Source: an uncultured Faecalibacterium sp. (lineage in GTDB: Bacteria; Bacillota; Clostridia; Oscillospirales; Ruminococcaceae). Taken from it: a stretch of 48,150 nt of DNA. The notes under the pieces were generated by a model, which saw only the letters and a program-made list of their open reading frames with translations, did no database searches and was not told the origin of the DNA. The stretch lies in NCBI GenBank assembly GCA_944385995.1, contig CALWZL010000009.1:1-48150 (forward strand). The letters are read 5' to 3'. Shown here piece after piece: positions 20,618 to 48,062 of this stretch. A program made the translations under genes and the position numbers. Every line of letters starts with the position of its first letter. Within the stretch, counting starts at the first letter, position 1.

Positions 20618-20791
20618 CTAGGGGGAACCCATTTCTGCCTGCATGCGCAGGTCAGAAATTCCTTCCCCCTAGTATCCCCCTGGGGACAAAATTTCCCGGC
20701 GAACCGCGCACGAGGCCTTTGGCCTCGCACACTCCCGCCGGAAAATTTCCCTGTCGGTGTCCGGCCTCAGGCACATGTCCTTCAGCCGGAC
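20618..20791 (+). repeat. Structured repeat element AC, copy 1 (3' of oadA)
   Basis: This is the first of three copies. Part A is a long hairpin with CTAGGGGGAA (20618-20627) against TTCCCCCTAG (20663-20672), plus inner stems ATTTCTG/CAGAAAT and CCTGC/GCAGG. Part C has a 13-bp stem (20689-20701 with 20736-20748, one mismatch) enclosing an AACCGCGCAC...CTCGCACACTC loop that has its own GGCC/GGCC hairpin. It then has a 7-bp stem GTCCGGC/GCCGGAC (20759-20765 with 20785-20791) with GCACATGTC in the loop. It begins 6 nt after the oadA stop. Confidence 0.85.
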
Positions 20792-21062
20792 GGATTAAAA
20801 TGGGGCCCGCAGGGAAGGGGAGGCAGGCCGGTTTGGTCTGTGTCGCCCCACGCTGGAAACAACCAGCTGCCCGCTAAAGCGGGCATATGGTACGAATCGG
20901 AGCGGCGGGCAAAAGCCGTTAAGAAAAACACCCGTGCCGCCGTTTGAGGCGCTGTAAGTTTCCACGGGCCAGGCATGACAGTGTTTTTTAGGCTTTTGAA
21001 CGACGCGACTTCCCTGTCTGGGTCCAGGGTTCAGACCCTGGTCGTTAGGGAGGGTAGGGAGT

Positions 21063-21111
21063 CCAGAGGGCCTAGGGAGGGGGAGTCGAAACCCCCTCCC
21101 TGGCCCTCTGG
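21063..21111 (+). other. Long GC-rich hairpin of unknown role
   Basis: CCAGAGGGCC (21063-21072) pairs with GGCCCTCTGG (21102-21111), and GGGAGGGGG (21075-21083) pairs with CCCCCTCCC (21092-21100), with only TA/T unpaired and an 8-nt loop. About 19 base pairs, too long and without a T tract for a normal terminator. Confidence 0.6.
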
Positions 21112-21207
21112 GCCCAGCGCAGCGAACAAAAGCGAAAAGAAATAGAGTGTGTAAAGGCAGCGCGGTACACTTGTCCCACTTGCCAAAACCCGGGAGGTGA
21201 CCCGTCC

Positions 21208-21420
21208 ATGTGGTTTTCAAAAAAGAAGGAACCCCGGGCTTATGATCTGACCCGCTGGAAACCAGTGATCCGGTGCAGCATCTGTACCGGGGAGCAGGCG
21301 GCGGGCTTCCGGGAGATCGCCACCGGGCGGTTTGAGGAAGTGATGCTGATCCGGGGCGATGCGGATCTGGAGCGCTTCAAAAGACAGTACGGCCTTGAGA
21401 CCGTCGCCAAAGAGTATTGA
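21208..21420 (+). CDS. Conserved small protein of unknown function (70 aa)
   Basis: A 70-residue protein beginning MWFSKKKEPRAYDLTRWKPV, with IRCSICTGEQAAGF and FEEVMLIRGDADLERFKRQYG. Similar tiny proteins are widespread in Clostridia. From memory, automatic pipelines sometimes label them aspartate dehydrogenase, which the size makes impossible. The two Cys (CSIC) could bind metal but are not conserved in all relatives I recall. The ATG has a GGGAGGTG site 8 nt away, and a terminator follows the stop by 3 nt. Confidence 0.85.
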   Translation: MWFSKKKEPRAYDLTRWKPVIRCSICTGEQAAGFREIATGRFEEVMLIRGDADLERFKRQYGLETVAKEY

Positions 21421-21423
21421 GTC

Positions 21424-21466
21424 CAGCCGGGCAGAGGGGAAACCCTTTGTCCGGCTGTTGTTTTTT
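21424..21466 (+). terminator. Terminator after the 70-aa gene
   Basis: CAGCCGG-CA-GGG pairs with CCC-TG-CCGGCTG around a GAAA loop, followed by a run of six T (21461-21466). It lies 4 nt after the stop codon. Confidence 0.93.
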
Positions 21467-21507
21467 GTGACAAGAGGGTGTGAAAGGCGAATTTTTCGCC
21501 GGTTCCC

Positions 21508-21536
21508 TTGCAAAAAAGGCATCAGAATAGTAAAAT
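21508..21536 (+). promoter_or_regulatory. SigA promoter of the yicC-remA-gmk-priA string
   Basis: TTGCAA (21508-21513), 17 nt, TAAAAT (21531-21536). A palindrome CCATAT-N8-ATATGG (21541-21560) begins at the expected start site and could bind a regulator. Confidence 0.75.
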
Positions 21537-21629
21537 GGTACCATATGTATCGTAATATGGGGCACTAGGCTCCCAAGGCGGATATATATACGGAAATGAT
21601 CTGGCAAGAATGAAAAGGGAAGAGAGAAT

Positions 21630-22508
21630 ATGATCTATAGTATGACGGGGTATGGCCGTGCCAGTGCGGTGCGGGACGGCCGGGAGATCACGGTGGAGCT
21701 GCGGAGCGTGAATGCGCGGTATTTTGAGTACAGTTCCCGGATTCCCCGGAGCTGTGCCTTTCTGGACAGCCGTCTCAAGACGCTGCTGAACAGCCGGATT
21801 GCCCGGGGCAAGGTGGAACTGAGCCTGACGGTCCAGAACACCGAGGCTTCGGACACGGCGGTGACGGTGGACATGAATCTGGCCCGCAGTTATCAGCAGG
21901 CGCTGCGGAATATGTCGGAGGAGCTGGGCATCAAAAACGACGTGACGGCGGGTCTGCTGGCCCGGTTTCCCGACGTGCTGACCACCCGGCAGGCCCAGGT
22001 GGACGAGGACCAGCTGTGGAACGACGTGTCGGACGTGGCGGCCCAGGCGCTGGAGAACTTCATCGAGATGCGGGGGATTGAAGGCGAGAAGATGCTGGCC
22101 GACATCACCGCCCGTCTGGATACGGTGGAGGACTGCGTGGGCAAAATCGAGGCCCTCAGCGCCGGCCGGGTGGAGAAATACACCCAGCGGCTGTATGAGC
22201 GGCTCAAGGTCATCCTGGAGGACCGCTCCATCGACGACGCCCGGGTTCTGACCGAGGCGGCCATCTTCGGGGACAAGACGGCGGTGGACGAGGAGACGGT
22301 GCGCCTGCGCAGCCACATCGCCCAGTACCGGGAGATTCTGGGCAGCGGGCAGCCGGTGGGCCGGAAGCTGGACTTTTTGACCCAGGAGCTGAACCGGGAG
22401 TCCAACACCATCGGCTCCAAGTGCCAGGACCTGGACATCACCCGGATTGTGGTGGACATGAAGGCCGAGATCGAGAAGATCCGCGAGCAGATTCAGAATC
22501 TGGAGTAA
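21630..22508 (+). CDS. yicC: YicC/YloC family endoribonuclease
   Basis: A 292-residue protein with the family opening MIYSMTGYGRASAVRDGREI, the N-terminal YicC domain (about 1-155) and the C-terminal DUF1732 domain ending DLDITRIVVDMKAEIEKIREQIQNLE in a helical tail. GRKLDFLTQELNRESNTIGSK is the most conserved stretch. YicC-family proteins have been shown to act as endoribonucleases on RNA. It heads the same gene string as yloC in Bacillus. Confidence 0.95.
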   Translation: MIYSMTGYGRASAVRDGREITVELRSVNARYFEYSSRIPRSCAFLDSRLKTLLNSRIARGKVELSLTVQNTEASDTAVTVDMNLARSYQQALRNMSEELGIKNDVTAGLLARFPDVLTTRQAQVDEDQLWNDVSDVAAQALENFIEMRGIEGEKMLADITARLDTVEDCVGKIEALSAGRVEKYTQRLYERLKVILEDRSIDDARVLTEAAIFGDKTAVDEETVRLRSHIAQYREILGSGQPVGRKLDFLTQELNRESNTIGSKCQDLDITRIVVDMKAEIEKIREQIQNLE

Positions 22509-22523
22509 ACAGGGTTTGCAGGT

Positions 22524-22784
22524 ATGAAACTCATCAACATCGGGTTTGGAAATATGGTCAGCGCCGAGCGGCTGGTGGCTGTGGTCAGCCCCGATTCGGC
22601 CCCCATCAAACGGATGGTGAAGGAGGCCCGGGAACAGGGCCGGCTGATCGATGCGTCCTATGGGCGGAGCACGCGGGCGGTCCTGATTATGGATTCGGAC
22701 CATGTGATTTTGTCGGCGCTGCAGCCCGAGACGGTGGCCAACCGTGCAGGCAGTCCGTCGGAAGGAAAAGGGGAGGAAGTTTAA
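22524..22784 (+). CDS. remA: Extracellular matrix regulator RemA family (DUF370)
   Basis: An 86-residue protein with [20 protein letters not shown] at the start and [27 protein letters not shown], which is the DUF370/RemA family. RemA in Bacillus is an oligomeric DNA-binding activator of biofilm matrix and osmoprotection genes. In other Clostridia the role is less clear. The position between yicC and gmk is the conserved one. It abuts gmk directly. Confidence 0.94.
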
Positions 22785-23357
22785 ATGAAAGGCGAAAAAT
22801 ATCTCTTTGTGGTGTCGGGCCCTTCGGGCGTGGGCAAGGACAGCGTGATGACCAAGCTCCGTGCCGCCCATCCTGAGATCGAAAAGACGGTGTCGGCCAC
22901 CACCCGGGCCCCCCGGGCCGGGGAGGCCGAAGGGGTCAACTACTACTACCGCACCGAGGAGGAGTTCCGCCGGATGGTGGAAGCGGGGGAGATTCTGGAG
23001 AGCAACTGCTTCAATCACCACTACTACGGCACCCTGAAGTCCGAAGTGGAAAAACGGATGGCGGCGGGAAAGATGGTCTTGCTGAACATTGACATTCACG
23101 GTGCGGCCAACATCAAGTGGCTGTATCCGGGTTCCACCGTCATTTTCCTGCTGCCCCCTTCCTGGGAGGTGCTGGAACAGCGGCTGCGGGGCCGGGGCAC
23201 CGACAGCGAAGCCGACGTGGCCAACCGCCTGGCCATTGCCAGAGAGGAGCTGGGCCACGCCGGGGAATTTGATGCCTGGATTGTCAACCGGGACCTGGAC
23301 CAGGCGGCGGCGGAACTGTACGCCGAGATGGTCCGGCGGGCCGGCCAGCCGGAATAA
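22785..23357 (+). CDS. gmk: Guanylate kinase
   Basis: A 190-residue enzyme phosphorylating GMP to GDP with ATP. The P-loop is SGPSGVGKDS, with Asp where many relatives have Gly before Ser/Thr. The GMP-binding region has TTRAPRAGEAEGVNYYYRTEE, and the lid region follows. rpoZ (omega subunit) and coaBC, which usually follow gmk, are absent; the next gene is priA after 22 nt. Confidence 0.96.
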   Translation: MKGEKYLFVVSGPSGVGKDSVMTKLRAAHPEIEKTVSATTRAPRAGEAEGVNYYYRTEEEFRRMVEAGEILESNCFNHHYYGTLKSEVEKRMAAGKMVLLNIDIHGAANIKWLYPGSTVIFLLPPSWEVLEQRLRGRGTDSEADVANRLAIAREELGHAGEFDAWIVNRDLDQAAAELYAEMVRRAGQPE

Positions 23358-23379
23358 ACGAGACAAAGGAGCGGGTTGA

Positions 23380-25644
23380 ATGCCAAAGACGGTGGGCGTT
23401 GCGGTGAGTCATGCAGCCTTCCACTTTGATAAGCTGTATACCTATGGGGTGATGCCCGACCAGCAGGACGCCGTCCGGCTGGGGAGCATGGTGCTGGTGC
23501 CCTTTGGGCGGGGGAGCCGTCCCCGGATGGGGGTGGTGCTGGCCTGCGACGCCGAGCCCGAGAGCGCCAAATTGAAAGTTCTGTTTGACGTGGCGCCGGC
23601 GTCGGCCTGCCTGACCCCGGAACTGCTGGAACTGGTGCGGTTTTTGAAGGCGAGGACCTTCTGCACCTGGTACGAAGCGGTCAAGGCGGTGATCCCCTAC
23701 GGAGCCCAGTACAAGCCGGCCCTGGCCCCCGACGGGGTGACCCCGGTGCTCCAGAAGCAGCTGACCCGCCACACCGAGACCTTGTACCGGCTGGCGGCGC
23801 CCCTGCCCCCAAAGCCCAAACCCACCGCCAAACAGCTGGCGGCGGTGGCCCTGCTGGGAGGCGGGCCCCGGACCCAGGCCGACCTGGAAGCCCACGGCAT
23901 CAGCCGGGCGGTGGCGGAAAACCTCTGCGCCAAGGGCGTTCTGGCCAAAGAGCAGGTGAATAAATCCCTGGACCTCTACGCCCACATCCCCCGGCAGACC
24001 GAGCGGCTGGAGCTGACCGCCGAACAGCAGGCGGCCTGCGACGCCCTTTCCCCCCACCTGGAGACGGGGCAGGCCCATACTGCTTTGCTGTACGGGGTGA
24101 CCGGCAGCGGCAAGACCCTGGTGTTTTTGCATCTGATCGAGCGGTGCCTGGCCCTGGGCAAAAAGGCCCTGGTGCTGGTGCCCGAAATCAGCCTCACCCC
24201 TCAGATGATCCGCCGGCTGAAAGAGCGGTTCGGCAAGCGGGTGGCGGTGCAGCATTCGGCCCTGAATCACACCGAGCGTCTGCTCCAGTGGCAGATGATC
24301 CAGGACGGCGGGGCGGACATCGTGGTGGGCACCCGCAGCGCCGTCTTTGCCCCCCTGGAACAGATCGGGCTGATCGTCATCGACGAGGAACAGGAGCACA
24401 CCTACCGGTCCGAGTCGGCCCCCCGGTATTCGGCCCACGAGGTGGCCCGGTGGCGGGCCGCCAAAAACGGGGCCCTGCTTCTGCTGGCCAGCGCCACCCC
24501 CAGCACCGAGACCTTTTATGAGGCCCGGGCGGGGCGGGTGCAGCTGGTGCGGCTGACCCAGCGGTACGCCGGCCAGCCTTTGCCGGCGGTCCAGATGGTG
24601 GATATGCGGGCCGAGCTGGCCGCCGGGAACCCCCGGGAAATCAGCCTGGCCCTGGAGGACGCCATCCGGGAAAATCTGGATGCGCACAAGCAGACCATCC
24701 TGCTTTTGAACCGGCGGGGCTACCAGACCATGGCCCAGTGCGAGGATTGCCGGGAGGTGCTCAAGTGCCCCAGGTGCAGCGTCCCCATGGTCTACCACAA
24801 AGACGGGGGCGGGCGGGTGCTCTGCCACTACTGCGGCACCCAGATTCAGCCCCGGCCCGCCGTATGTCCGGCCTGCGGGGGCAAGCTCCAATACCGGGGC
24901 TTCGGCACCCAGAAGGCGGAAGAGGAGCTGGCGGCCCTGTTTCCCGAGGCCCGCATCCTGCGGATGGACCAGGACACCACCGCCGCCAAGGACGCCCACG
25001 AAACCTTGCTGGCCCGGTTTGCCCGCCATGAATACGACATCATGGTGGGGACCCAGATGGTGGCCAAGGGCCTGGACTTTGAGGATGTGACCCTGGTGGG
25101 GGTGCTGGGGATTGATTCCCTGCTGTTTGCCCAGGGCTTTCGGGCCTATGAGACGGTGTTCAGCCTGGTGACCCAGGTGGTGGGCCGCAGCGGCCGGGCG
25201 TCCAGCCCGGGCCGGGCCATCATCCAGACCACCGACCCCGGCAACCCTGTCCTCAACCTGGCCGCCGCCCAGGACTATGACGCTTTTTTCGCCCAGGAGA
25301 TCGAGTACCGCAAACTGGGCCTCTATCCGCCCTTTTGCAGTTTGTGCATTGTGAGCTTTTCGGGCAAAAAGGAAGGGGAGGTGGCCAAAGCCGCCGCCCG
25401 GTTTGCCCAGCTGCTGGGCCAGGAGGCCGCCAAACAGCCGGATATTCCTTTGCGGGTGCTGGGCCCCACCCCGGGCAGCATCCTCAAGATCAATGACATT
25501 TACCGCTATAAATTGACCGTCAAGTGCCGCAACGACAAGCGGTTCCGGGCCCTGCTGCGGCAGGTGCTGAGCTGTTACGAGGAGGAAAAACTCCCCGCCA
25601 AAGCCGCTGCCGCGGTGGATATGCACTCGGACGGAGACATATAA
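23380..25644 (+). CDS. priA: Primosomal protein N' (replication restart helicase)
   Basis: A 754-residue superfamily 2 helicase that reloads the replisome at collapsed forks. Residues about 1-100 form the 3'-OH DNA-binding domain (KLYTYGVMPDQ). The helicase has Walker A YGVTGSGKT, Walker B VIDEEQEHTY and motif III LLASATPS. The zinc-binding insertion has paired Cys motifs CEDC, CPRC, CHYC and CPAC. Motifs V and VI lie in VGTQMVAKGLDFEDV and TQVVGRSGRASSPG. The DEEQ reading of Walker B is usual in Clostridia. The C-terminal domain ends before 25644. Confidence 0.97.
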   Translation: MPKTVGVAVSHAAFHFDKLYTYGVMPDQQDAVRLGSMVLVPFGRGSRPRMGVVLACDAEPESAKLKVLFDVAPASACLTPELLELVRFLKARTFCTWYEAVKAVIPYGAQYKPALAPDGVTPVLQKQLTRHTETLYRLAAPLPPKPKPTAKQLAAVALLGGGPRTQADLEAHGISRAVAENLCAKGVLAKEQVNKSLDLYAHIPRQTERLELTAEQQAACDALSPHLETGQAHTALLYGVTGSGKTLVFLHLIERCLALGKKALVLVPEISLTPQMIRRLKERFGKRVAVQHSALNHTERLLQWQMIQDGGADIVVGTRSAVFAPLEQIGLIVIDEEQEHTYRSESAPRYSAHEVARWRAAKNGALLLLASATPSTETFYEARAGRVQLVRLTQRYAGQPLPAVQMVDMRAELAAGNPREISLALEDAIRENLDAHKQTILLLNRRGYQTMAQCEDCREVLKCPRCSVPMVYHKDGGGRVLCHYCGTQIQPRPAVCPACGGKLQYRGFGTQKAEEELAALFPEARILRMDQDTTAAKDAHETLLARFARHEYDIMVGTQMVAKGLDFEDVTLVGVLGIDSLLFAQGFRAYETVFSLVTQVVGRSGRASSPGRAIIQTTDPGNPVLNLAAAQDYDAFFAQEIEYRKLGLYPPFCSLCIVSFSGKKEGEVAKAAARFAQLLGQEAAKQPDIPLRVLGPTPGSILKINDIYRYKLTVKCRNDKRFRALLRQVLSCYEEEKLPAKAAAAVDMHSDGDI

Positions 25645-25698
25645 CAGAACAAGCCGGGGCAAAGTGCGCCCGGCGGAATGATTAGGAGAGGTGTTCGT

Positions 25699-26232
25699 AT
25701 GGCTATCCGCAACATTGTCAAAGAAGGCGATCCGATTCTGAATAAGGTTTGCCGCCCTGTGACCAAATTCGACGACCGTCTGGCCACCCTGCTGGACGAT
25801 ATGCACGAGACCATGATCGCCGCCGACGGCGTGGGTCTGGCAGGTCCCCAGGTGGGGATGCTCCGCCGGCTGTTTGTGGTGTGGGACGTTACCGACGCCC
25901 CCGAGGAGCTGCCCGAGGACTACGAGTACAAGTTCATCGACTTCATCAATCCCGAGATTCTGGCGGTGTCGGAGGAGGAGGAGACCCACTACGAGGGCTG
26001 CCTGTCCTTCCCGGGGCACAACGGCGCCGTGACCCGTCCGGTGGCGGTGAAGGTCCGGGCCCAGGACCGGCACGGCGAATGGTTTGAGCTGGAGGCCGAC
26101 GGCCTGCTGGGCCGCTGCATCCAGCACGAGAACGACCATCTGGACGGCATCACCATCATGCAGTCCAGCGATTACTTCTACGAGGACACCGAGGAGGGCC
26201 GCGCCGAGGCCCGGAAAGCGAAGGAGCAGTAA
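25699..26232 (+). CDS. def: Peptide deformylase
   Basis: A 177-residue metalloenzyme removing the N-formyl group from nascent proteins. Motif 1 is GVGLAGPQVG, motif 2 EGCLSFPG (metal-ligand Cys) and motif 3 QHENDHLDG (HEXXH, with two His ligands and the catalytic Glu). The ATG 25699 has AGGAGAGGTG just upstream; the Met at 25678 lies before it. The stop is followed at once by fmt, whose product adds the formyl group that Def removes. Confidence 0.96.
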   Translation: MAIRNIVKEGDPILNKVCRPVTKFDDRLATLLDDMHETMIAADGVGLAGPQVGMLRRLFVVWDVTDAPEELPEDYEYKFIDFINPEILAVSEEEETHYEGCLSFPGHNGAVTRPVAVKVRAQDRHGEWFELEADGLLGRCIQHENDHLDGITIMQSSDYFYEDTEEGRAEARKAKEQ

Positions 26233-27153
26233 ATGCGGATTTTGTTCATGGGAACGCCGGACATTGCGGCGTCCTGCCTGGAGGCGCTGTACGCCGCCGG
26301 CCATGCGATCTGCGGCGTATACACCCGGCGGGATAAGCCGGTGGGCCGCAAACAGGTGCTGACCCCGCCGCCGGTGAAAACGGCGGCCCAGGCCCACGGC
26401 ACCCCGGTGTTCCAGCCCCGGACCCTGCGGGACGGCGGCGAGGACGCCAACATCCGGGCCCTGGCCCCCGAATTGATCGTGGTGGTGGCCTATGGGTGCA
26501 TCCTGCCCCAGTCGGTGCTGGACATCCCGAAATTCGGCTGCATCAACCTGCATGTCTCCCTGCTGCCCAAATACCAGGGCAGTGCGCCGGTCCAGTGGGC
26601 GGTGCTGAACGGCGACGCCGAGACCGGCGTGTCCATCATGCAGATGGATGCCGGCCTGGACACCGGCGACGTGCTGGTCTGCGAGAAAATCGCCATCGAC
26701 CCCGAGGAAACCAGCGGCCAGCTGTTTGACCGGGTGGCCGCGGTGGGGGCCCGGGTGCTGTGCGAGGCGGTGCCTCAGATTGCCGCCGGCACTTTGACCC
26801 CGGTTCCCCAGGACCACGCCGCCGCCACCCTGGCCCCGCCCCTCTCGAAAGAGATGGCGGAGTTCCGCTGGACCGATTCGGCGGAGCACATCCACAACTG
26901 GGTCCGGGGGATGAACCCCTGGCCTTCGGCCTGGTTTGTCACCAGCGGCGGCCGCAAGGTCAAGGTCACCGAGAGCCGCCTGGCGGAGAGCGATGGCCGG
27001 GCCCCCGGCACCGTGATCGCCCTCAAGCCCCTGACGGTGGCCTGTGCCGACGGCGCGGTCCAGCTGCTGCGGGTGGTGCCGGAAGGCTCCAAGCCCATGG
27101 AGGGCAGCGCCTTCGCGGCGGGCCTGCGGCTCAAAGCGGGGGATCTCCTTTGA
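26233..27153 (+). CDS. fmt: Methionyl-tRNA formyltransferase
   Basis: A 306-residue enzyme that formylates Met-tRNAi using 10-formyl-tetrahydrofolate. It begins MRILFMGTPDIAASCLEAL and has the formyl-transfer motif SLLPKYQGSAPVQWA with Asn/His/Asp catalytic residues (INLHVSLLP, DTGDVL). The C-terminal OB-like domain that holds the tRNA covers about residues 205-306. It is directly downstream of def, and its stop overlaps the TTG start of rsmB. Confidence 0.97.
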   Translation: MRILFMGTPDIAASCLEALYAAGHAICGVYTRRDKPVGRKQVLTPPPVKTAAQAHGTPVFQPRTLRDGGEDANIRALAPELIVVVAYGCILPQSVLDIPKFGCINLHVSLLPKYQGSAPVQWAVLNGDAETGVSIMQMDAGLDTGDVLVCEKIAIDPEETSGQLFDRVAAVGARVLCEAVPQIAAGTLTPVPQDHAAATLAPPLSKEMAEFRWTDSAEHIHNWVRGMNPWPSAWFVTSGGRKVKVTESRLAESDGRAPGTVIALKPLTVACADGAVQLLRVVPEGSKPMEGSAFAAGLRLKAGDLL

Positions 27154-37115: not shown

Positions 37116-37289
37116 CCAGGGGGAACCCATTTCTGCCTGCATTCGCAGGTCAGAAATTCCTTCCCCCTGGTATCCCCCTGGGGACAAAATATTCCGGCGA
37201 ACCATGCACTCGCCTTGCGGCTCGCACACTCTCGCCGGAATATTTCCCTGTATGTGTCCGGGCCGTACGCACATGTCGTCCGGTCCGGA
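37116..37289 (+). repeat. Structured repeat element AC, copy 2 (3' of spoIVA)
   Basis: Aligns over its whole length with 20618-20791. Part A keeps CCAGGGGGAA/TTCCCCCTGG and ATTTCTG/CAGAAAT. The main C stem is a perfect 13 bp (37187-37199 with 37233-37245) but has AAATATT where copy 1 has AAATTTC, and both sides are changed together. The last stem is TCCGGGCC/GGTCCGGA (37257-37264 with 37282-37289), again with changed but paired sequence. GCACATGTC in the loop and CTCGCACACTC are unchanged. It begins 3 nt after the spoIVA stop. Confidence 0.87.
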
Positions 37290-37299
37290 AATTTTTTAT

Positions 37300-39597: not shown

Positions 39598-39604
39598 CGG
39601 CGGT

Positions 39605-40253: not shown

Positions 40254-41185
40254 GCCGGATTGCAGGCCGGGCAGGCGAATTCGGTGACGATCTGTTTTTT
40301 GCTCTCGGGGGTGGAATAGACCCACCGGTCGATGTGGCCGCCGGTGACAAAGTATTGCAGGTCGAACCGGTGGTTCTGGCCCAGGCTGCGGTTGACGATC
40401 ACCAGCTTGATCTTCATCTTTTCGGGCAGGATGCTCTTGATGTAGACGCTGACCGCCTGTCCCGGGCGCAGGTCGGGGCAGCTCTCGGCCAGCCCGGCCA
40501 GATTGGGGGCAATCTCCACAAAGGTGCCGTATTCCTCGATGCTGCGCACGATCCCCACCACCGTCTCGCCGGGGGAGAAGGCGGCGGCGTTCTCGGCCCA
40601 GGTGCCCAGCAGTTCCCGGATGGTGAGGACAAACCGGCCCTGGGCGTCCCGGCTGCGGATGGCACAGAGGATCTGCTGGCCCACGCTGACCCGGTCGGCG
40701 GGGGAGGAGATCCGGCTCACCGACATGCAGTCGATGGGCAGCAGGGCGCTGATGCCGCAGCCCACGTCGCAGAACGCCCCGAAGGACTCGATGTGGGTCA
40801 CGGTGCAGGGCAGAATGTCCCCGGGGACCAGGGTGTCCAGGTATTCCTCCCGGCACATCTGCTGGGCCCTGGCCCGGGACAGCCGGTAGAAGGGCCGGCC
40901 CTGGGCGTCCTCCTCCATCCCCTCAATCACAAAGCAGGTGGCCCGGCCCACCCGGGTCAGGACGGCAATGTCCCGCACCGCGCCGGTGCCGGCGCCCTCG
41001 GCGCAGTCGGCAAAGGGCATAATCCCCCGCACGCCTCCCAGCTCAAAGCGGAGCTGGCGCTGGGTGTCAAAGGCCAGGGCGGTGCTCTGGAGGATTTCCC
41101 CGCCGGCGATGGCGGCCCGCAGCTCGGCGCTGCTCAGACGGGAAGCGTCCCGGTAATTGCCTTCGGTTCTAAAGCTTTGCATCAT
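40250..41185 (-). CDS. S1 RNA-binding domain protein
   Basis: A 311-residue protein with two S1 (OB-fold) domains, about 120-190 (VPGDILPCTVTHIESFGAFC) and about 205-275 (GETVVGIVRSIEEYGTFVEI). The N-terminal 110 residues resemble the start of Clostridia ribosomal-protein-S1-like paralogues. The C-terminus has a short CPAC motif. It likely binds RNA or the ribosome. It is not the full S1, which has four or more domains. The Met pair at 41185/41182 leaves the start ambiguous by one codon; AGAGG is 8 nt from the first. Confidence 0.85.
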   Translation of the reverse strand: MMQSFRTEGNYRDASRLSSAELRAAIAGGEILQSTALAFDTQRQLRFELGGVRGIMPFADCAEGAGTGAVRDIAVLTRVGRATCFVIEGMEEDAQGRPFYRLSRARAQQMCREEYLDTLVPGDILPCTVTHIESFGAFCDVGCGISALLPIDCMSVSRISSPADRVSVGQQILCAIRSRDAQGRFVLTIRELLGTWAENAAAFSPGETVVGIVRSIEEYGTFVEIAPNLAGLAESCPDLRPGQAVSVYIKSILPEKMKIKLVIVNRSLGQNHRFDLQYFVTGGHIDRWVYSTPESKKQIVTEFACPACNPA

Positions 41186-41277
41186 CTTTCATTCCTCTTT
41201 CTTCAGTTCTGTGGCATAGGCTGTTCAGGGCGGGGCAAGGGGCCCCGTACAGCATATGCGAATTTTTTGTGGGGTAT

Positions 41278-41306
41278 TTGCTTTTTACATGCGTTTGGTT
41301 TATACT
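41278..41306 (+). promoter_or_regulatory. SigA promoter of DUF951-prfA
   Basis: TTGCTT (41278-41283), 17 nt, TATACT (41301-41306). The leader before the ATG at 41370 is about 57 nt. It is divergent from the S1-domain gene. Confidence 0.82.
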
Positions 41307-41369
41307 ATGGAATGCGGTCCCGCCCGAAAGCGGACAGAGCCGCACAGCCAGTCAGAAAGGAGCCTGTCC

Positions 41370-41567
41370 ATGGATATCGCTGTCGGAGACATCATTCAAA
41401 CCAGAAAGAAACATCCCTGCGGCGCCTCCAGCTTTGAGGTGCTGCGGGTGGGGATGGACTTCCGCATCCGCTGCACAGGCTGCGGCCGGGAGGTCATGCT
41501 GCCCCGGGTCAAGATTGAAAAGAACATCAAAAAGGTCATCAAGCCCAACCCGGACGGCCAGCAGTAG
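41370..41567 (+). CDS. DUF951 small protein
   Basis: A 65-residue protein, MDIAVGDIIQTRKKHPCGAS at its start, with FEVLRVGMDFRIRCTGCGREV and MLPRVKIEKNIKKV. This is DUF951, a short Firmicute family with an SH3-like fold that is often beside translation genes. The Cys residues at CG and CTGC suggest a metal or RNA contact. The ATG 41370 has AAAGGAG 9 nt away; the longer upstream frame overlaps the promoter. Confidence 0.9.
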   Translation: MDIAVGDIIQTRKKHPCGASSFEVLRVGMDFRIRCTGCGREVMLPRVKIEKNIKKVIKPNPDGQQ

Positions 41568-41615
41568 CCGCCCTTTTTGCACCGGAACAGTTGATGCAGA
41601 AAGGAGCGGACCACA

Positions 41616-42695
41616 TTGAATCTGGAGCAGCAGATGGAGACGGTGAGCCGCCGGTTCGAGGAACTGACCCACCGGCTCAACCAGCCCGGGACGGCGGCCG
41701 ACCCGGCCGAGTTCCGGCGTCTGATGCAGGAATACCACGAGGCCGAGCCGGTGGTGCAGGCCTACCGGGCCTGGCAGACCGAGCTGGACCACCTGGCACA
41801 GGCAAAAGCCCTGCTCACAGGCGAGGAGGCCCAGGAGCCGGACTTCAAACAAATGATACAGCAGGAAATCTGCGAAAAAACGCAGTCTGCGGCGAAGCTG
41901 GAAGATTCTCTCAAACTTCTTCTTCTGCCCCGGGACGAATACGACGGCCGGAGCGTGATTGTGGAGGTCCGCAGCGGGGTAGGCGGCGAGGAAGCCGCCC
42001 TGTTTGCCCACAGCCTGGTGCGGATGTACAGCATGTACGCCCAGGCCAGGCACTGGCAGATGGAATTGCTCAACCTCAGCGAGACCGAGCTGGGGGGCGT
42101 CCGGGAAGCGGTGTTTGCGGTGAACGGCCAGGGGGCCTACAGCCGGCTCAAGTTTGAGAGCGGGGTCCACCGGGTCCAGCGGGTCCCCGACACCGAGACC
42201 CAGGGCCGGATTCACACCTCGACGGCCACGGTGGCGGTGCTGCCCCAGGCCGAGGAAGTGGAAGTGGAACTGGACATGAAGGATCTGCGGATCGACACCT
42301 TCCGTTCATCGGGAGCCGGCGGCCAGCATATCAATAAGACATCCAGCGCCATTCGGATCACCCACCTGCCCACCGGGATGGTGGTGGAGTGCCAGAACGA
42401 GCGCAGCCAGTTCCAGAACAAGGACAAAGCCCTGGAGATTCTCCGCAGCCGTCTGCTGGCCCAAAAAAAGAGCGAGCAGCAGAACGCCATCAACGCCGGC
42501 CGTCAGGCCCAGGTGGGGACGGGGGACCGGAGCGAAAAGATCCGCACCTACAATTTCCCCCAGGACCGGTGTACCGATCACCGGATCGGGCTGACGGTCC
42601 ACAATCTGGACAAAATCATGGATGGCGGGCTGGATGAAGTGCTGGACGCATTGATTCTGCACGAACAGGCCGAAAAGCTGTCCCGGCTTTCCTAA
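41616..42695 (+). CDS. prfA: Peptide chain release factor 1
   Basis: A 359-residue class I release factor for UAA and UAG codons. The stop-codon reading motif PXT is PDT in RVQRVPDTETQGR (about residue 190). The GGQ motif that triggers hydrolysis is in SSGAGGQHINKTSS (about residue 234). The start is TTG 41616 with AAGGAG 9 nt upstream; the next ATG in frame is MET at residue 6, which would cut the conserved N-terminus. Confidence 0.96.
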   Translation: MNLEQQMETVSRRFEELTHRLNQPGTAADPAEFRRLMQEYHEAEPVVQAYRAWQTELDHLAQAKALLTGEEAQEPDFKQMIQQEICEKTQSAAKLEDSLKLLLLPRDEYDGRSVIVEVRSGVGGEEAALFAHSLVRMYSMYAQARHWQMELLNLSETELGGVREAVFAVNGQGAYSRLKFESGVHRVQRVPDTETQGRIHTSTATVAVLPQAEEVEVELDMKDLRIDTFRSSGAGGQHINKTSSAIRITHLPTGMVVECQNERSQFQNKDKALEILRSRLLAQKKSEQQNAINAGRQAQVGTGDRSEKIRTYNFPQDRCTDHRIGLTVHNLDKIMDGGLDEVLDALILHEQAEKLSRLS

Positions 42696-42763
42696 GACAG
42701 CAGTGGATAGAAGGATAGGATAGGAACAGGCACGGAACCCCGTGCCGGAAAGCGGATGAAAGT

Positions 42764-43789
42764 ATGAGCATCGAAACCCTTCTCTGCCCGGCGGATGAGG
42801 CGGGAATTGCCCGCGCAGCCGCCCTTTTGCGGCAGGGAGATATTCTTGCGCTGCCCACCGAGACGGTGTACGGCATTGCGGCCGACGCCCGGAACGGCGC
42901 GGCGGTGGCAAAAATTTTCAAGGCCAAGGGCCGGCCCCAGGATAACCCCCTCATCGTCCACATCGACGATGTCAAGATGCTGCCGGGGCTGGTCAGCGAA
43001 TTCCCCGAGCGGGCCCAGCTGCTGGCGGCGGCCTTCTGGCCGGGTCCTCTGACCATCATCATGCCCCGGGGCCCCGAGGTGGCGGACGAGTGCTGCGCCG
43101 GGCTGGACACGGTGGGCATTCGGATGCCCAGCCACCCGGTGGTGCGGAAGGTCATCGAGGCCAGCGGCTGCGCCTTTGCGGCGCCGTCGGCGAATTTGTC
43201 GGGCAAGCCCAGCCCCACCACGGCCCAGGATGTCTGGACCGACATGCAGGGCCGGCTGCCTTTGATTCTGGACGGCGGGCCCTGTGCCGTGGGGGTGGAG
43301 TCCACCGTCATCTCGGTGGTGGGGGAGAAGCCCACCCTGCTCCGCCCCGGTTACATCACCCTGGAGGACCTGGAACGGGCCCTCGGGGAAGAAGTGGTCC
43401 TGTCGGGGGCCATCCTGGAAAAGCTGGCCGACGGCGAAGTGGCCCGGAGCCCCGGCATGAAGTACAAACACTATGCCCCCAAGGCGGACATCACCATCCT
43501 GAGCGGCAGCTTTGACCAGTTCAAGGCCTATGTCCAGGCCCACGCCGATCAGGACCCGGCCTGCCTGTGCTTCACCGGGGAGGCGGCAAAGCTGCCTTTC
43601 CCCTGCGTGGAGTACGGCCGGGAAGGGGACGGGGCGGACCAGTCCAAACACATTTTCCGCTGCCTGCGGGCCCTGGATGAGCAGGGGGACCGGGTGGTCT
43701 ACGCCCGCTGCCCCCAGAAGGACGGCGTGTCGATGGCGGTGTACAACCGTCTGATCCGCGCCGCGGCTTTCCGGGTGATTGCGCTATGA
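42764..43789 (+). CDS. tsaC: Threonylcarbamoyl-AMP synthase
   Basis: A 341-residue Sua5/YwlC-type protein that makes the threonylcarbamoyl-adenylate used for tRNA t6A37. The YrdC domain (1 to about 205) has DILALPTETVYGIAADA, KAKGRPQDNPLIVHI and AAPSANLSGKPSPTTA. A linker with the YKHYAPKADI motif leads to the C-terminal Sua5 domain (about 235-341). The long form with this second domain is usual in Firmicutes. Its stop overlaps the coaE start by 4 nt. Confidence 0.95.
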   Translation: MSIETLLCPADEAGIARAAALLRQGDILALPTETVYGIAADARNGAAVAKIFKAKGRPQDNPLIVHIDDVKMLPGLVSEFPERAQLLAAAFWPGPLTIIMPRGPEVADECCAGLDTVGIRMPSHPVVRKVIEASGCAFAAPSANLSGKPSPTTAQDVWTDMQGRLPLILDGGPCAVGVESTVISVVGEKPTLLRPGYITLEDLERALGEEVVLSGAILEKLADGEVARSPGMKYKHYAPKADITILSGSFDQFKAYVQAHADQDPACLCFTGEAAKLPFPCVEYGREGDGADQSKHIFRCLRALDEQGDRVVYARCPQKDGVSMAVYNRLIRAAAFRVIAL

Positions 43790-44406
43790 TGACGGTGGGA
43801 ATCACCGGCCGCAGCGGCTGCGGCAAATCGACGGTGACAGAATGTTTTCGATCCAGAGGAATCCCGACAGCCGACGCCGATCAGCTGTCCCGGGAGATTT
43901 TGCAGCCCGGTTCGCCGGTGCTGGCCCAGCTGGCCCGGCAGTTCGGCCCCGATATCCTGGAGGATGGGGTGCTGAACCGGCGGCGGCTGGCCGACCGGGC
44001 TTTCGCGACGGCGGGGGGCAAACAGGCCCTGGACGCCATCACCCATCCCGCCATCGCGGCGGGAATCCAGGCCGCCCAGGACGCCGCCCGGCAGGCCGGC
44101 AGCCCCTTGTTTGTGATCGACGGGGCGGTGCTGGTGGGCAGCGTCATCGACGGCCAGTGGGACCGTCTGGTGGTGGTCACCGCCCCTTACGAGACCAGCG
44201 TTGGACGGATTGTCCAGCGGGACGGCATCCGGCCCGAAATGGCCCGCCGCCGTCTGGATGCCCAGATCCCCGAAGAGCAGCTCACCGCCCGGGCGGATAT
44301 CGTCCTGACCAACGACGGCACCCGGGACCAGCTGCGCCGGCAGGCCGAGGCCCTGGTGGACCGGCTGCTGGCCGAGGCAGAAGGAGGTGCGGTTCAGCGG
44401 GTTTGA
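43786..44406 (+). CDS. coaE: Dephospho-CoA kinase
   Basis: A 206-residue enzyme for the last step of coenzyme A synthesis. The P-loop is GITGRSGCGKST, and the CoA-binding RAD-like region and the lid VQRDGIRPEMARRRLDAQI are present. TNDGTRDQLRRQ near the end is typical. It overlaps tsaC by ATGA and the lytic transglycosylase start by TTGA, so three genes are tightly coupled. Confidence 0.95.
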   Translation: MMTVGITGRSGCGKSTVTECFRSRGIPTADADQLSREILQPGSPVLAQLARQFGPDILEDGVLNRRRLADRAFATAGGKQALDAITHPAIAAGIQAAQDAARQAGSPLFVIDGAVLVGSVIDGQWDRLVVVTAPYETSVGRIVQRDGIRPEMARRRLDAQIPEEQLTARADIVLTNDGTRDQLRRQAEALVDRLLAEAEGGAVQRV

Positions 44407-44969
44407 AACTGCGAACGAAGATCATCGCCCTGCTGTTGGCGGTGGTGCTGCTGGTCAGCATGCCGACCCTTGTGCGCAAGGTGGAAGAACAGCTTTACCC
44501 CTGCAAATATGCCGATGTGGTGGAGACCTACGCGGCGGAGTACGACCTGGACCCCCTGCTGATTTATACGTTCATCCGCACCGAGAGCAGCTTTGAGCCG
44601 GACGCGGTGTCGGAGGTGGGGGCCCGGGGGCTGATGCAGATGACCGAGGAGACCTTTGAGTGGATCAAGACCAAGCTGGCCCCCGAGGAGGACATCACCT
44701 TTGCGGACCTGTACGACCCGGCCTGCGCGGTGCGGTTCGGCGCCTATTACCTGCGTCTGTGCCTGGACCGGTACGGCGGAGACGTGGCCACCGCGGCGGC
44801 GGCCTATCACAGCGGATGGGGGACGGTGGACAGCCTGTTGAATCACGAGGACTACGCCGGAGACGGCAAGACCCTCCCCACCTTCCCCTATAGCCGGATG
44901 AATCACTATGTGGAGAAGATTCTCCACGGCTATGAGCGCTATACGGAGCTGTACGGCTCCAGTATATAA
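44403..44969 (+). CDS. Lytic transglycosylase (SLT domain)
   Basis: A 188-residue protein that starts at a TTG overlapping the coaE stop (MKLRTKIIALLLAVVLLVSM after initiation). Residues 5-24 form a signal anchor or signal peptide. The SLT domain (about 45-180) has the catalytic Glu in FIRTESSFEPDA (about residue 61), then GARGLMQMTEETF and AAYHSGWGTV. It cleaves peptidoglycan between MurNAc and GlcNAc. The pairing with coaE recurs in Clostridia. The frame continues far upstream, but only as a shadow of coaE. Confidence 0.88.
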   Translation: MKLRTKIIALLLAVVLLVSMPTLVRKVEEQLYPCKYADVVETYAAEYDLDPLLIYTFIRTESSFEPDAVSEVGARGLMQMTEETFEWIKTKLAPEEDITFADLYDPACAVRFGAYYLRLCLDRYGGDVATAAAAYHSGWGTVDSLLNHEDYAGDGKTLPTFPYSRMNHYVEKILHGYERYTELYGSSI

Positions 44970-44976
44970 AAGGAAA

Positions 44977-45012
44977 CGGGCCCCCGCGGCGTGCTGCCGC
45001 GCCCGGCCCGTC
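44977..45012 (+). terminator. Hairpin between the transglycosylase and aminopeptidase genes
   Basis: ACGGGCC and CGCGGC pair with GCCGCG and GGCCCGT with small internal loops. No T tract follows, so it may be a partial terminator or processing hairpin. AGGAAGAG for the next gene lies shortly after it. Confidence 0.45.
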
Positions 45013-45043
45013 GGGAGTAAAAAAGGAAGAGGTTGAAAGAAAC

Positions 45044-46447
45044 ATGAAAGAAATGACCGAAGCACAGAAGAAGGCCAAAGAGCTTCTGTATGAGCCCGCT
45101 TACAAGTCGGACAAGGACGCTGCGGTCCGCAAGGCTGCGGCCGCCTTCAGCGAGGGGTACAAGGATTTCATCACCCGCTGCAAGACCGAGCGGGAGGTGG
45201 CCGTTTATGCCGAGAAGGCCCTGCAGGATGCGGGATACCAGCTGTATGACGACCGGAAGCAGTACGCTCCCGGCGAGAAGGTCTACTGGATTCACCACAA
45301 GAAGGCGGTTCTCTGCGCCACCATCGGCACCCGTTCGATGGAGGACGGCTTCCGCCTGATGATCGCCCACATCGACAGCCCCCGTCTGGACATCCGTCCC
45401 AACCCCCTGTATGAGGCTGCCCACTTCAGCTACTTCAAGACCCACTACTATGGCGGCATCCGCAAATACCAGTGGGCCACCATGCCCCTGGCCATCCACG
45501 GCGTGCTGACCCGTGCCGACGGCTCCACCGTCACCGTCCAGGTGGGCGAGGACGTGAACGACCCCGCCTTCTGCATCACCGACCTGCTGCCCCACCTGAG
45601 CGCCGAGCAGAACAAGCGGGAGCTGTCCGACGGCATCCGCGGCGAGGAGCTGAACATCCTGATCGGTTCCGACGCCGTGGAGGACGAGGAGGTCAAGGAG
45701 CGGGTCAAGCTGGCCACCATGATGCTGCTGAACGAGAAGTACGGCATCACCGAGAAGGACTTCACCCGCGCCGAGCTGGAGATCGTCCCCGCCACCCCCG
45801 CCCGCGACATCGGCTTTGACCGTTCGATGATCGGCGGTTACGGCCAGGACGACCGTGTGGACGCCTATCCCGCCCTGATGGCCGAGATGGAGGTCAAGAA
45901 CCCCGCTTACACCACCGTCTGCGTCCTGGCAGACAAGGAGGAGATCGGCAGCTACGGCATCACCGGTATGGGCAGCACCTATACCTATGACTGGCTGCGT
46001 CAGCTGTGCGCCAGCCAGAACGCCGACCCCATCCGGGCCTTCCACAACAGCCTGTGCCTGTCCGCCGACGTGACCGCAGCCTACGATCCCAGCTGGGCCA
46101 GCGCCTTTGAGCCCCAGAACGGCACCTATGCCGGCCGGGGCGTGGCCTTCTTCAAGTACACCGGCAGCCGCGGCAAGAGCGCTGCCAACGACGCCACCGC
46201 CGAGCAGATGGGCTATCTGACCCGGATGATGGATGCAGCGGACGTTGCATGGCAGGTGGGCGAGCTGGGCCGCATCGACCTGGGCGGCGGCGGCACTGTG
46301 GCCACCGAGGTGGCCCGCTACGGCATCCCGGTGGTGGACATCGGCGTGCCGGTGCTGTCCATGCACTCGCCCTTCGAGGTCGTCAGCAAGAACGACCTGT
46401 ACATGGCGTACCGTGCCTTCAGCACCTTTGCGGCCGCACAGGACTAA
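45044..46447 (+). CDS. M18 family aminopeptidase
   Basis: A 467-residue zinc aminopeptidase releasing acidic N-terminal residues. Metal and catalytic motifs are IAHIDSPRLDI (His and Asp), GYGQDDRVDAY (Asp), ADKEEIGSYG (catalytic Glu and ligand) and PVLSMHSPFEV (last His). The protein is well expressed by its codon use and has few of the runs of rare GGG codons found in its neighbours. It is cytosolic, with no signal peptide. A terminator lies 23 nt after its stop. Confidence 0.95.
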   Translation: MKEMTEAQKKAKELLYEPAYKSDKDAAVRKAAAAFSEGYKDFITRCKTEREVAVYAEKALQDAGYQLYDDRKQYAPGEKVYWIHHKKAVLCATIGTRSMEDGFRLMIAHIDSPRLDIRPNPLYEAAHFSYFKTHYYGGIRKYQWATMPLAIHGVLTRADGSTVTVQVGEDVNDPAFCITDLLPHLSAEQNKRELSDGIRGEELNILIGSDAVEDEEVKERVKLATMMLLNEKYGITEKDFTRAELEIVPATPARDIGFDRSMIGGYGQDDRVDAYPALMAEMEVKNPAYTTVCVLADKEEIGSYGITGMGSTYTYDWLRQLCASQNADPIRAFHNSLCLSADVTAAYDPSWASAFEPQNGTYAGRGVAFFKYTGSRGKSAANDATAEQMGYLTRMMDAADVAWQVGELGRIDLGGGGTVATEVARYGIPVVDIGVPVLSMHSPFEVVSKNDLYMAYRAFSTFAAAQD

Positions 46448-46470
46448 ACCACAGAGCGTAAACCCCTGAG

Positions 46471-46506
46471 GAGCGGCGCGGCGTCCAACCTGCGCCGCTC
46501 CCTTTT
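46471..46506 (+). terminator. Terminator of the aminopeptidase gene
   Basis: A perfect 9-bp stem, GAGCGGCGC (46471-46479) with GCGCCGCTC (46492-46500), is followed by CCTTTT. It lies 23 nt after the stop. Confidence 0.8.
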
Positions 46507-46527
46507 GCGGGTAAGGGGGAAGGAATT

Positions 46528-47661
46528 ATGACAAAACTGAAACGCTTTTTCCAGCAGGAGACGGTGCTGTCGGTGGCGGCGGTCCTGGCGGTTGTCTCTG
46601 CGCTGTTTGTCCGGCCCGACGGGGAATACCTGGGCTACATTGACTGGCGGACCCTGGCCATCCTGTTTTCCCTGATGACGGTGATGGCGGGCCTGCGGCG
46701 GCAGGGGTTCTTTGACCGGATGGGCCGGGCCCTGCTGGCCCTCAGCGGCGGCACCCTCCAGCTGGTCCTGGTGCTGGTGGGACTGTGCTTTTTCGGAAGC
46801 ATGTTCATCACCAACGATGTCTCCCTGCTGACCTTTGTGCCCTTCACCTTTGTAGTGCTGGACAGCCTGGGGGAGGAGATGCGGGAAAAGCTGGTCCTGC
46901 CGGTGGTCTGCATGCAGACGGTGGCGGCCAACCTGGGCAGTATGCTCACCCCCATCGGCAACCCCCAGAACCTCTACCTCTACGGCAAGAGCGGGATGGG
47001 CATAGGGTCCTTTGTGGCCCTGATGCTGCCCTACAGCCTGGCCTCCCTGGTGATGCTGGGGGTCTGGGCGGTGGTCCTGTGCCGGAATCTCCGGTCCAGC
47101 GCCGGGCCCTTCCTGGCCTCCAAACACACCGCCCACGCCAACCAGAAGATCGTCCTGATGTACGGGGTGCTGTTCCTGGTCTGCCTGCTGTCGGTGGTCC
47201 GGGTCCTGCCCTATGGGGTGGCTTTTGCGGCGGTCCTTGCCGCCGCCCTGGCGGCGGACCGGGTCACCCTGAAAGGGGTGGATTACTCCCTGCTGCTGAC
47301 CTTTGTGGCCTTCTTTGTCTTCATCGGCAACCTGGGCCGGATTCCGGCCTTTTCGGACTGGCTGGCCGGCATCATCGCCGGCCGTGAGGTGCTGGTGTCG
47401 GTGCTGGCCTCCCAGGTCACCAGCAACGTCCCGGCGGCCCTGCTGCTGTCCGGCTTCACCGACAACACCCGGGCCCTCATCATCGGCACCAACATCGGCG
47501 GCCTGGGCACCCTGATCGCCTCGATGGCCAGCCTGATTTCCTACCGCCAGATCGCCCGGGAGGAACCGGAAGGGAAGGGAAAATACTTCGCCCTCTTCAC
47601 CGCCTCCAACTTGGTGTTCCTGGCCGCCCTGCTGGTCCTCTGGGCCATCCTGTCCCTGTGA
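46528..47661 (+). CDS. SLC13/ArsB-like anion permease
   Basis: A 377-residue membrane protein with about 10 hydrophobic segments. It has the ion-transporter superfamily hallmarks ITNDVSLLTFVPF (residues about 92-104), TPIGNPQNLYLYG (about 147-159), the repeated SNVPAALLLSGF and GTNIGGLGTLIAS. Two inverted repeats with an N-P/N-V re-entrant turn are typical of CitMHS, NhaD and DASS families. The ion carried is not determined. It is shorter than most members (420-470). AAGGGGGAAGG precedes the ATG. Confidence 0.83.
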   Translation: MTKLKRFFQQETVLSVAAVLAVVSALFVRPDGEYLGYIDWRTLAILFSLMTVMAGLRRQGFFDRMGRALLALSGGTLQLVLVLVGLCFFGSMFITNDVSLLTFVPFTFVVLDSLGEEMREKLVLPVVCMQTVAANLGSMLTPIGNPQNLYLYGKSGMGIGSFVALMLPYSLASLVMLGVWAVVLCRNLRSSAGPFLASKHTAHANQKIVLMYGVLFLVCLLSVVRVLPYGVAFAAVLAAALAADRVTLKGVDYSLLLTFVAFFVFIGNLGRIPAFSDWLAGIIAGREVLVSVLASQVTSNVPAALLLSGFTDNTRALIIGTNIGGLGTLIASMASLISYRQIAREEPEGKGKYFALFTASNLVFLAALLVLWAILSL

Positions 47662-47675
47662 CATCCCACACAGCC

Positions 47676-47706
47676 AAAAAAAGCCGCTGCCCCCGGGGCG
47701 GCGGCT
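47676..47706 (-). terminator. Terminator downstream of repeat copy 3
   Basis: On the minus strand AGCCGC-GCCCC pairs with GGGGC-GCGGCT (one G-T pair), followed by a run of seven T (47682-47676). It would end a transcript coming from the right-edge gene through the repeat element. Confidence 0.88.
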
Positions 47707-47722
47707 CAGACTATCAAAAAGG

Positions 47723-48062
47723 TCTCAGCCGGACGACATGTGCGTACGGCTGAGACACCTACAGGGAAATTTGCCGCAGAGAGTGTGCGAGGCTGCAAAG
47801 CCGAGTGCGCGGTTCTGCGGCAAATTTTGTCCCCAGGGGCAAACACAGCGACCGCGTCCTGCGGACGAAACAGGGAGCTGTGTTTGGCGCAGCGCTCCGG
47901 TTTTTGCAAGCACCCGCTGCGGTGCGCCGCAAAAATCGGCTAAGCGCAAGAGGGCCGCGGTCTGCCTTTTGCAAGGGCGCCACGACGCCCGCCGCAAAAG
48001 CAGGGAACCGCAACCAAAGGAATTTCTGCCGCGCGACTGCGCGCAGAAATGGGTTCCCCCTA
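47723..48062 (-). repeat. Structured repeat element AC, copy 3, with nested element B
   Basis: In the minus direction it reads part A (48062-48021: AGGGGGAACCC, ATTTCTG, CAGAAAT), then about 180 nt of other sequence including element B, then part C. The main C stem is a perfect 13 bp, AAATTTGCCGCAG (47767-47779) with CTGCGGCAAATTT (47815-47827), different in sequence from copies 1 and 2. The last stem is 8 bp (47723-47730 with 47748-47755), again different. The CTCGCACACTC and GCACATGTC motifs are kept. It starts 12 nt after the stop codon at 48075. Confidence 0.85.
47841..47956 (-). repeat. Structured repeat element B, copy 2
   Basis: Minus-strand homologue of 8354-8471. The 11-bp stem (47897-47907 with 47929-47939) has one G-T wobble, and a 9-bp stem AAACACAGC (47841-47849) pairs with GCTGTGTTT (47877-47885). 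The shared motifs CTCTTGCGCTTAGCC, AGCGCTGCGCCA and CGTCCGCAGGACGCG are in the same order as in copy 1. A further similar hairpin lies next to it (about 47966-48000). Confidence 0.75.

Follow-up and report, generated by a model that had tools for sequence, protein, structure and literature searches.

We conclude that the structured repeats in the window (the whole stretch of 48,150 nucleotides that was analysed, from an uncultured Faecalibacterium sp.) are quite probably copies of a small non-autonomous mobile DNA element, a MITE, of Faecalibacterium and its near relatives, and that hairpins can be duplicated around the element. This confidence covers the mobility and the hairpin duplication, and it overlaps with the chance, weighed below, that the same element is moved by another enzyme. 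The original prediction had favoured a 3'-UTR RNA under selection, with a mobile palindromic element inserting at terminators as its alternative. It is the alternative that the terminal repeats, the hairpin duplications and the empty sites described below support; the ends, terminal repeats and duplicated hairpins were absent from that prediction.

The three predicted copies were all recovered in the window, and the genes upstream of copies 1 and 2 are an oadA-type decarboxylase subunit gene and spoIVA, as proposed. Copy 2 folds far beyond chance, both as RNA (z -9.8) and as DNA (z -9.3). Immediately beyond the right end of copy 3 lies a terminator hairpin; judging from the duplication pattern in other copies, it is probably the one remaining copy of a target that had been duplicated. 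No Rfam family reached its gathering threshold in the window, in keeping with the original prediction, which had not recognised a named RNA family; sub-threshold matches were seen only around copy 2.

Coordinates of the three copies in the window and of their parts
Feature	Position	Strand	Remarks
Copy 1	20619..20793	+	7 nt after the stop of the oadA-type decarboxylase subunit gene
Copy 1, left end, left hairpin copy and right terminal repeat			none visible
Copy 1, first hairpin P1/P2	20619..20671	+	
Copy 1, main stem P3 with conserved internal motifs	20689..20748	+	
Copy 1, last stem P4	20759..20791	+	variant loop, no T tract after it
Copy 2	37116..37297	+	3 nt after spoIVA; T tract after P4, the intrinsic-terminator form
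Copy 2, P4 stem and T tract	37257..37297	+	
Copy 3	47707..48062	-	behind the right-edge gene; carries an internal block
Copy 3, surviving right arm of the left-end hairpin	48064..48074	-	directly after the TAA stop; read by comparison with other copies
Block in copy 3	47840..48016	-	about 177 bp, splits the first hairpin
Part of a second dispersed palindromic family, in the copy 3 block	47849-47953	-	
Copy 3, right terminal repeat GATAGTCTG	47707..47715	-	
Terminator hairpin just beyond the right end of copy 3	47682..47706	-	read from sequence

The element is not confined to three copies in the genome. We observed 14 model matches in the window genome, which merged to 11 clear copies, with one further match in doubt. 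Several sister species are richer, one of them with 144 model matches (69 of these above 80 bits), and relatives of the element are present in two other genera. The carriers are patchily distributed (11 of 31 genus genomes), and searches of plasmids and of phages gave no match. Complete copies are about 215-230 bp long, and the core of about 182 nt leaves no room for a transposase gene. They end in imperfect terminal inverted repeats of the form CAGnnTGTC...GACAnnCTG, common to copies of different genera; the left repeat is frequently GAGCGTGTC, and the commonest form of the right repeat is GACAGTCTG.

Transposases normally make target duplications of a small, fixed number of bases. When we examined the flanks of 105 full copies, the same direct repeat was found on both sides in 24, scoring higher than 99.5% of a null made by shuffling flanks (84 at best, against 31 as the highest score in the null), and no duplication was found around the other 81. 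These 24 duplications represent about 22 sites, since L002 and L220 are an orthologous pair and L035 and L243 are near-identical copies from the same genome. Their length varies between sites, from 18 to 43 bp. In the right-hand flank copy, 15 of the 24 have both ends within 4 nt of those of a hairpin, and controls treated in the same way matched in 47 of 400 and 39 of 395 segments. If either flank copy counts, 17 of the 24 coincide with one complete terminator-type hairpin, and in the other 7 the best hairpin is not coincident in either copy. Duplication length correlated with hairpin length (r 0.65), a value that partly reflects the method, since the window searched for a hairpin was itself sized by the duplication. 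Empty sites, which the original prediction had proposed looking for in close strains, were found at two places, both in sister species and each with a single hairpin: one at L053, and also L011 and L077, compared with L032, and the other at L129, L127 and L131, compared with L002.

Two other kinds of mobile element were considered and set aside. A REPIN-like element moved by a RAYT/IS200-type Y1 transposase would also be palindromic, intergenic and present in many copies. It is disfavoured and scarcely credible here, since Y1 transposition is not known to make a target duplication, and a Y1 transposase match was absent in 9 of the 11 genus carriers, with partial matches in the other two (several carrier genomes being incomplete, and G108 and G187 lying outside this search). 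A derivative of the IS1202 family could account for unusually long target duplications, as its long-duplication members make duplications of 16-28 bp (PMC10132070). We rejected this explanation as highly improbable: in the available part of that source the ends are described as 5'-TGT (stated for Acinetobacter members) rather than the 5'-CAG seen here, the long duplications measure 16-17 or 27-28 bp rather than a variable 18-43 bp, and no hairpin target is noted (PMC10132070).

We also evaluated the stems themselves. As predicted, they differ between copies and still pair: double changes occurred in 26 of 49 stem pairs, and among 50 full copies 253 cells were changed on both sides, compared with 71.7 +/- 6.2 in shuffles, so that covariation is beyond chance. 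At orthologous sites, 18 double changes had arisen in place against 8 single or other changes, over six pairs. The loop motifs, which had been described as unchanging, are nearly but not fully fixed (CTCGCACACTC and GCACATGTC). Their conservation extends across genera, and a MITE that depends on its ends alone would have no need of it; this observation speaks against the mobile reading. These features, taken with a T-rich run after P4 (at least 5 T in 10 nt) in 125 of 152 copies and a sense bias of 31 to 8 among tandem genes, would be expected of a cis-acting 3'-UTR RNA (terminator, stability or riboswitch-like) held by host selection on its structure, with spread being secondary. Yet on the transcribed strand G.U does not exceed A.C. 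Over 42 stem pairs and 107 copies, the non-Watson-Crick cells comprised 29 G.T and 47 A.C, beside 520 double changes; with the two weakest stem pairs kept, they were 30 and 74. A small tRNA comparison (9 G.U against 4 A.C in 147 acceptor-stem cells of 21 tRNA genes) was set aside. Since G.T is not favoured over A.C, maintenance of the palindrome in DNA is indicated. We infer that correction or conversion of the palindrome in DNA, together with constraint on the element, accounts best for the covarying stems, rather than selection on an RNA of the element strand. Given the excess of A.C over G.T, an RNA made from the opposite strand may be under some constraint.

The position of the copies bears on the same question. 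The original prediction placed every copy just after a same-strand stop codon. This holds for the three copies in the window and not in general: among 97 full copies with usable flanks, 78 share the strand of their upstream gene, and just 25 of these 78 begin no more than 15 nt from its stop codon. The others comprise 8 antisense copies behind a gene, 4 between divergent genes and 7 with no called upstream gene; some copies sit in 5' leaders. The stop-codon-adjacent copies are probably older ones that have lost their left end. Together with the terminal repeats, the target duplications, the two empty sites, the G.T and A.C counts and the patchy distribution, this makes a 3'-UTR RNA improbable as the primary identity of the repeats. 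The orientation bias among tandem genes indicates that host selection on termination therefore also acts.

Judged from sequence comparison, the likely mobiliser of this MITE is a member of the IS1182 family, as a candidate only. An autonomous IS1182-family IS of 1610 bp, L278, is present in G021, a sister species of the same genus, with terminal repeats CAGACTGTCTAAC/GTTAGACAGTCTG. The first 9 bp are identical between the element and L278, and both share the CAGACTGTC terminal repeat and a fold-back copy of that repeat near one end. In eight plasmid-borne IS1182 relatives the inverted repeats were of or near the form (C/G)AGnnYGTGTnAAAAC, similar to the element ends. Unlike the element, L278 is autonomous, its host genome carries no copy of the MITE, and its own flanks share just about 4 bp; in an empty-site search for L278, the matches ended short of the junction.

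An autonomous element with these ends was not found in any carrier genome searched. All seven places matching the left-end hairpin pattern in four genomes belonged to element copies. The right-end pattern gave 65 matches in 13 genomes, and no transposase end was seen at the 30 whose loci were read 230 bp upstream; taken together, the two end searches showed element copies, fragments and chance matches. Such ends did not occur as a pair around any of the six full-length IS1182 genes of five carriers. A scan for them also covered five loci whose IS1182 matches are partial, among them the pieces in G187, which had no matching left end. Relatives of the L278 transposase were detected in 5 of 30 other genus genomes at E <= 1e-10, all just 26-29% identical. 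The transposase had no match at 1e-60 in 394 genomes of the order (a search without positive control), none was confirmed in viral contigs, and the IS DNA had no match in plasmids.

The same mobile element might instead depend on a non-IS1182 enzyme, for example a Cas1-like integrase that would duplicate the hairpin as Cas1-Cas2 duplicates the CRISPR repeat. CRISPR spacer integration also duplicates a whole repeat, and in addition no IS1182 element with these ends was found in the carrier genomes searched. We regard another enzyme as unlikely, as an IS1182 element from this genus has a matching terminal repeat, and hairpin targeting is already known among IS1182 members.

For the mobile element, we lean towards a mechanism in which the folded hairpin selects the target and sets the duplication length. 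The CAGnnTGTC ends would be recognised by a DDE transposase, with the IS1182 family as its likeliest source. The target would be a palindrome, in most cases a transcription terminator or attenuator, that has been extruded as a cruciform, and the transposase would join the element ends to its two strands at the 5' feet. This landing pad would then be copied intact to both sides by gap repair; the duplication itself is seen in the flanking repeats and at the two empty sites. Insertion would be expected to be nearly harmless, as neither side loses the hairpin and most copies come with a terminator of their own, made of P4 and the T tract, and this would let copies accumulate. Older copies would have lost the left hairpin and the left end to deletion, sometimes as far as the upstream stop codon, so that the left-deleted element becomes the 3' end of the gene. 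Comparison with other copies suggests that this is the state of the three copies in the window.

A comparable use of hairpins has been described for IS1272 / TnSha1 of the IS1182 family, which selects its target hairpins by their structure rather than their sequence, several being terminators, and for which there is a cruciform model (Furi 2016, PMC4923244; Wan 2017, PMC5678879). As presented in the available parts of these sources, IS1272 differs in being autonomous and in replacing or partly deleting the hairpin with no target duplication, whereas this element duplicates the whole hairpin. Whole-hairpin duplication appears there as pathway b of Fig 13, only as a possibility (Wan 2017, PMC5678879). 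BOX, RUP and SPRITE of Streptococcus pneumoniae resemble the element in being small, structured, many-copy and likely non-autonomous; BOX is modular and SPRITE resembles a terminator (PMC3049150). The likeness noted is one of description, and in the available part of that source whole-hairpin duplication is unmentioned and no target duplication is established for SPRITE (PMC3049150). No report of natural whole-hairpin duplication was found in the portions of the literature searched.

If the proposed mechanism is true, the element would be a natural case of what the IS1272 model shows only as a hypothetical branch, duplication of the whole stem-loop, and an element with its own terminator would thereby become the 3' end of host genes. 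As the duplicated unit is mostly a whole terminator-type hairpin of 18-43 bp, varying between sites, cruciform-dependent integration becomes directly testable. The hairpin duplication also suggests a route to high copy number without gene breakage. Strong stem covariation in dispersed bacterial repeats can mimic a conserved RNA, and the balance of G.T and A.C, examined together with the flanks, helps to separate a mobile palindrome from such an RNA.

The three copies of the element in the window are real. The original prediction described the element as a three-copy repeat always found just after a stop codon, a description that holds in the window but is too narrow beyond it. The genome gave 14 element matches; after merging, 11 copies are clear and one match is doubtful. 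Of 97 full copies assigned a gene context, 78 follow a gene on their own strand, and 25 of the 78 start within 15 nt of its stop codon. From comparison of copies, the complete element consists, in order, of a left-end hairpin that opens with CAGCGTGTC or GAGCGTGTC, the first hairpin P1/P2, the main stem P3, which carries conserved internal motifs, the last stem P4 with the loop CACATGTC, then a T tract and finally the right end, most often GACAGTCTG. The copy behind the oadA-type gene has a variant P4 loop, CTCAGGCACATGTCCTTC. In An122, a copy that follows a different gene has downstream sequence in common with it (L042, L057), as if a longer element or a conversion tract existed. The window also holds a second family of dispersed palindromes (CCTCTTGCGCTTAGCC...GGAGCGC...GTGTTTG), which relatives have too.

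Copies of the element and of the second palindromic family in the window
Feature	Position	Strand	Context
Copy 1	20619-20793	+	behind oadA-type gene
Copy 2	37116-37297	+	behind spoIVA
Copy 3	48062-47707	-	behind right-edge gene
Block interrupting copy 3	48016-47840	-	holds part of the second dispersed repeat family
Second family, copy	8355-8460	+	
Second family, copy	47849-47953	-	inside copy 3, breaking its first hairpin

The element is a mobile element. Complete copies in all three genera have left ends of the CAGnnTGTC type and right ends in -CTG. The same direct repeat was observed in the left and right flanks of 24 of the 105 full copies with usable flanks, and was not found in the other 81. 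The threshold for calling a duplication, a score of 26, was set at the 99.5% level of a null made from 2100 shuffled pairings; observed scores reached 84, against a null maximum of 31. Among the 24 are the orthologues L002 and L220, as well as two copies from genome G011 that are nearly identical (L035/L243); apart from these the duplicated sequence varies from site to site. The duplications are 18 to 43 bp long, and 15 of the 24 match a hairpin to within 4 nt at both ends when the right-hand copy is taken (17 of 24 if either flank copy may count), as compared with 47/400 and 39/395 in the controls. Duplication and hairpin lengths are correlated (0.65), although this is partly built in, since the search window was scaled with the duplication. 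A literature search of open-licence PubMed Central papers, covered for the most part through their listings, found no report of natural whole-hairpin duplication.

Two insertion sites are empty in sister species, with one single hairpin at each. The first lies behind a gene (L053, L011 and L077 versus L032). The second is part of a 5' leader, with a promoter-like sequence on one side and a MATE-family gene on the other (L129, L127 and L131 versus L002). L077 (G017) is in the opposite orientation to L044, L032 and L011 in the same intergenic region, and is probably an independent insertion relative to them. L002 (G000) and L220 (G014) are orthologous copies placed in an attenuator-like hairpin of the 5' leader of the MATE-family transporter gene, and have the same unusual left-end hairpin.

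The covarying stems were confirmed. In 50 copies, 26 of the 49 stem pairs had a double change; double-change cells numbered 253, where shuffling gave 71.7 +/- 6.2, and the signal was lost when partners were slid by 1-3 columns. With 107 copies and 42 pairs, there were 520 double changes, and the non-Watson-Crick cells were 29 G.T, 47 A.C and 46 other; G.T versus A.C became 30 versus 74 once the two weakest pairs were included. Selection on an RNA from the element strand should favour G.T, but G.T is not favoured here; the A.C excess leaves room for some opposite-strand constraint. Six pairs of copies at orthologous sites showed 18 double changes and 8 single or other. We read these patterns as palindrome correction or conversion in DNA, together with constraint on the element. 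The loops are conserved across genera and contain TGTC motifs resembling the ends; our guess is that they might bind the transposase. The ends, flank duplications and empty sites, along with the G.T result, led us to replace the 3'-UTR RNA first favoured with the alternative offered beside it, a mobile palindromic element at terminators, for which a specific mechanism can now be proposed. The original prediction did not recognise the element as a named RNA family, and it has no Rfam match above threshold.

Of 61 genomes searched at the DNA level, 11 carry the element, and every one of these belongs to the window's genus, which contributed 31 genomes to the search. A 20-base probe scan of named genomes gave 49 stretches, every one in Faecalibacterium. 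The covariance model found it in 3 of 148 family-wide genomes (the window's own, and G108 and G187 from two other genera). In the sister species G004 there were 144 model matches, 69 of them above 80 bits, with 150 scored out of 983 candidates and some weaker matches being the opposite strand of a strong one. At least a dozen of the G004 matches start no more than 10 bases from the beginning of a contig, so the size of the family is probably underestimated in fragmented assemblies. L149 in G108 shares the right end TTTCGACAGTCTG and differs in its internal core; it may represent another type of element that uses the same ends.

According to PMC4923244 and PMC5678879, IS1272 (IS1182 family) enters hairpins that it recognises by their structure rather than their sequence, and several of these are terminators; it takes out the whole or part of the hairpin with no duplication left. 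In the cruciform model of Wan et al. (PMC5678879), the whole stem-loop would be duplicated if the ends joined at the 5' feet, and the loop only if they joined at the loop. The element shows the whole stem-loop outcome. Two carriers hold IS1182-family insertion sequences with the ends GGAGCTGTTGACAAA (L275 in G022, L274 in G014), whose 5-bp duplications, GTTTT and GCTTC, read by eye, are hairpin loops; these insertions look like the loop-joining outcome. L273 in G004, a further relative that shares these ends, showed no such loop duplication.

An IS1182-family transposase is a fairly likely mobiliser of the element. L278, an IS1182-family insertion sequence in the sister species G021, scores 347 bits (cut-off 270). 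Its terminal repeat is CAGACTGTCTAAC, and the first nine bases of this repeat, reverse-complemented, give the right end most often seen in the element. Relatives of its transposase occur in 186 plasmid records; in the 8 examined (36-38% identity), the best inverted repeats have or approach (C/G)AGnnYGTGTnAAAAC. However, G021 is itself without a copy of the element, a close relative of the L278 transposase was present in none of the carriers searched, all of them from the window's genus, and the L278 flanks have only about 4 bp in common. Two other candidates were rejected: a Y1 transposase as mobiliser, unmatched in 9 of the 11 carrier genomes of the genus, and the IS1202 family as source, with ends and duplication lengths that differ from those of the element.

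Gene context was assigned using a home-made codon scorer for the 97 full copies flanked by 350 bp or more, orthologous copies being counted apart. The neighbouring genes are convergent around 47 of these copies and divergent around 4. Another 31 lie in sense between tandem genes, 8 lie in antisense, and 7 have no called upstream gene. We infer that the copies right behind stop codons are older ones trimmed from the left, because at one orthologous site L024 retains the left hairpin and left end and L021 has only a remnant beside the stop codon, and because window copy 3 keeps only the right arm of its left-end hairpin, directly behind TAA. Independent insertion at that site is a possible source of the L021/L024 difference. 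At least five T occur within 10 nt past P4 in 125 of 152 copies, and the sense bias of 31 to 8 is compatible with selection for termination.
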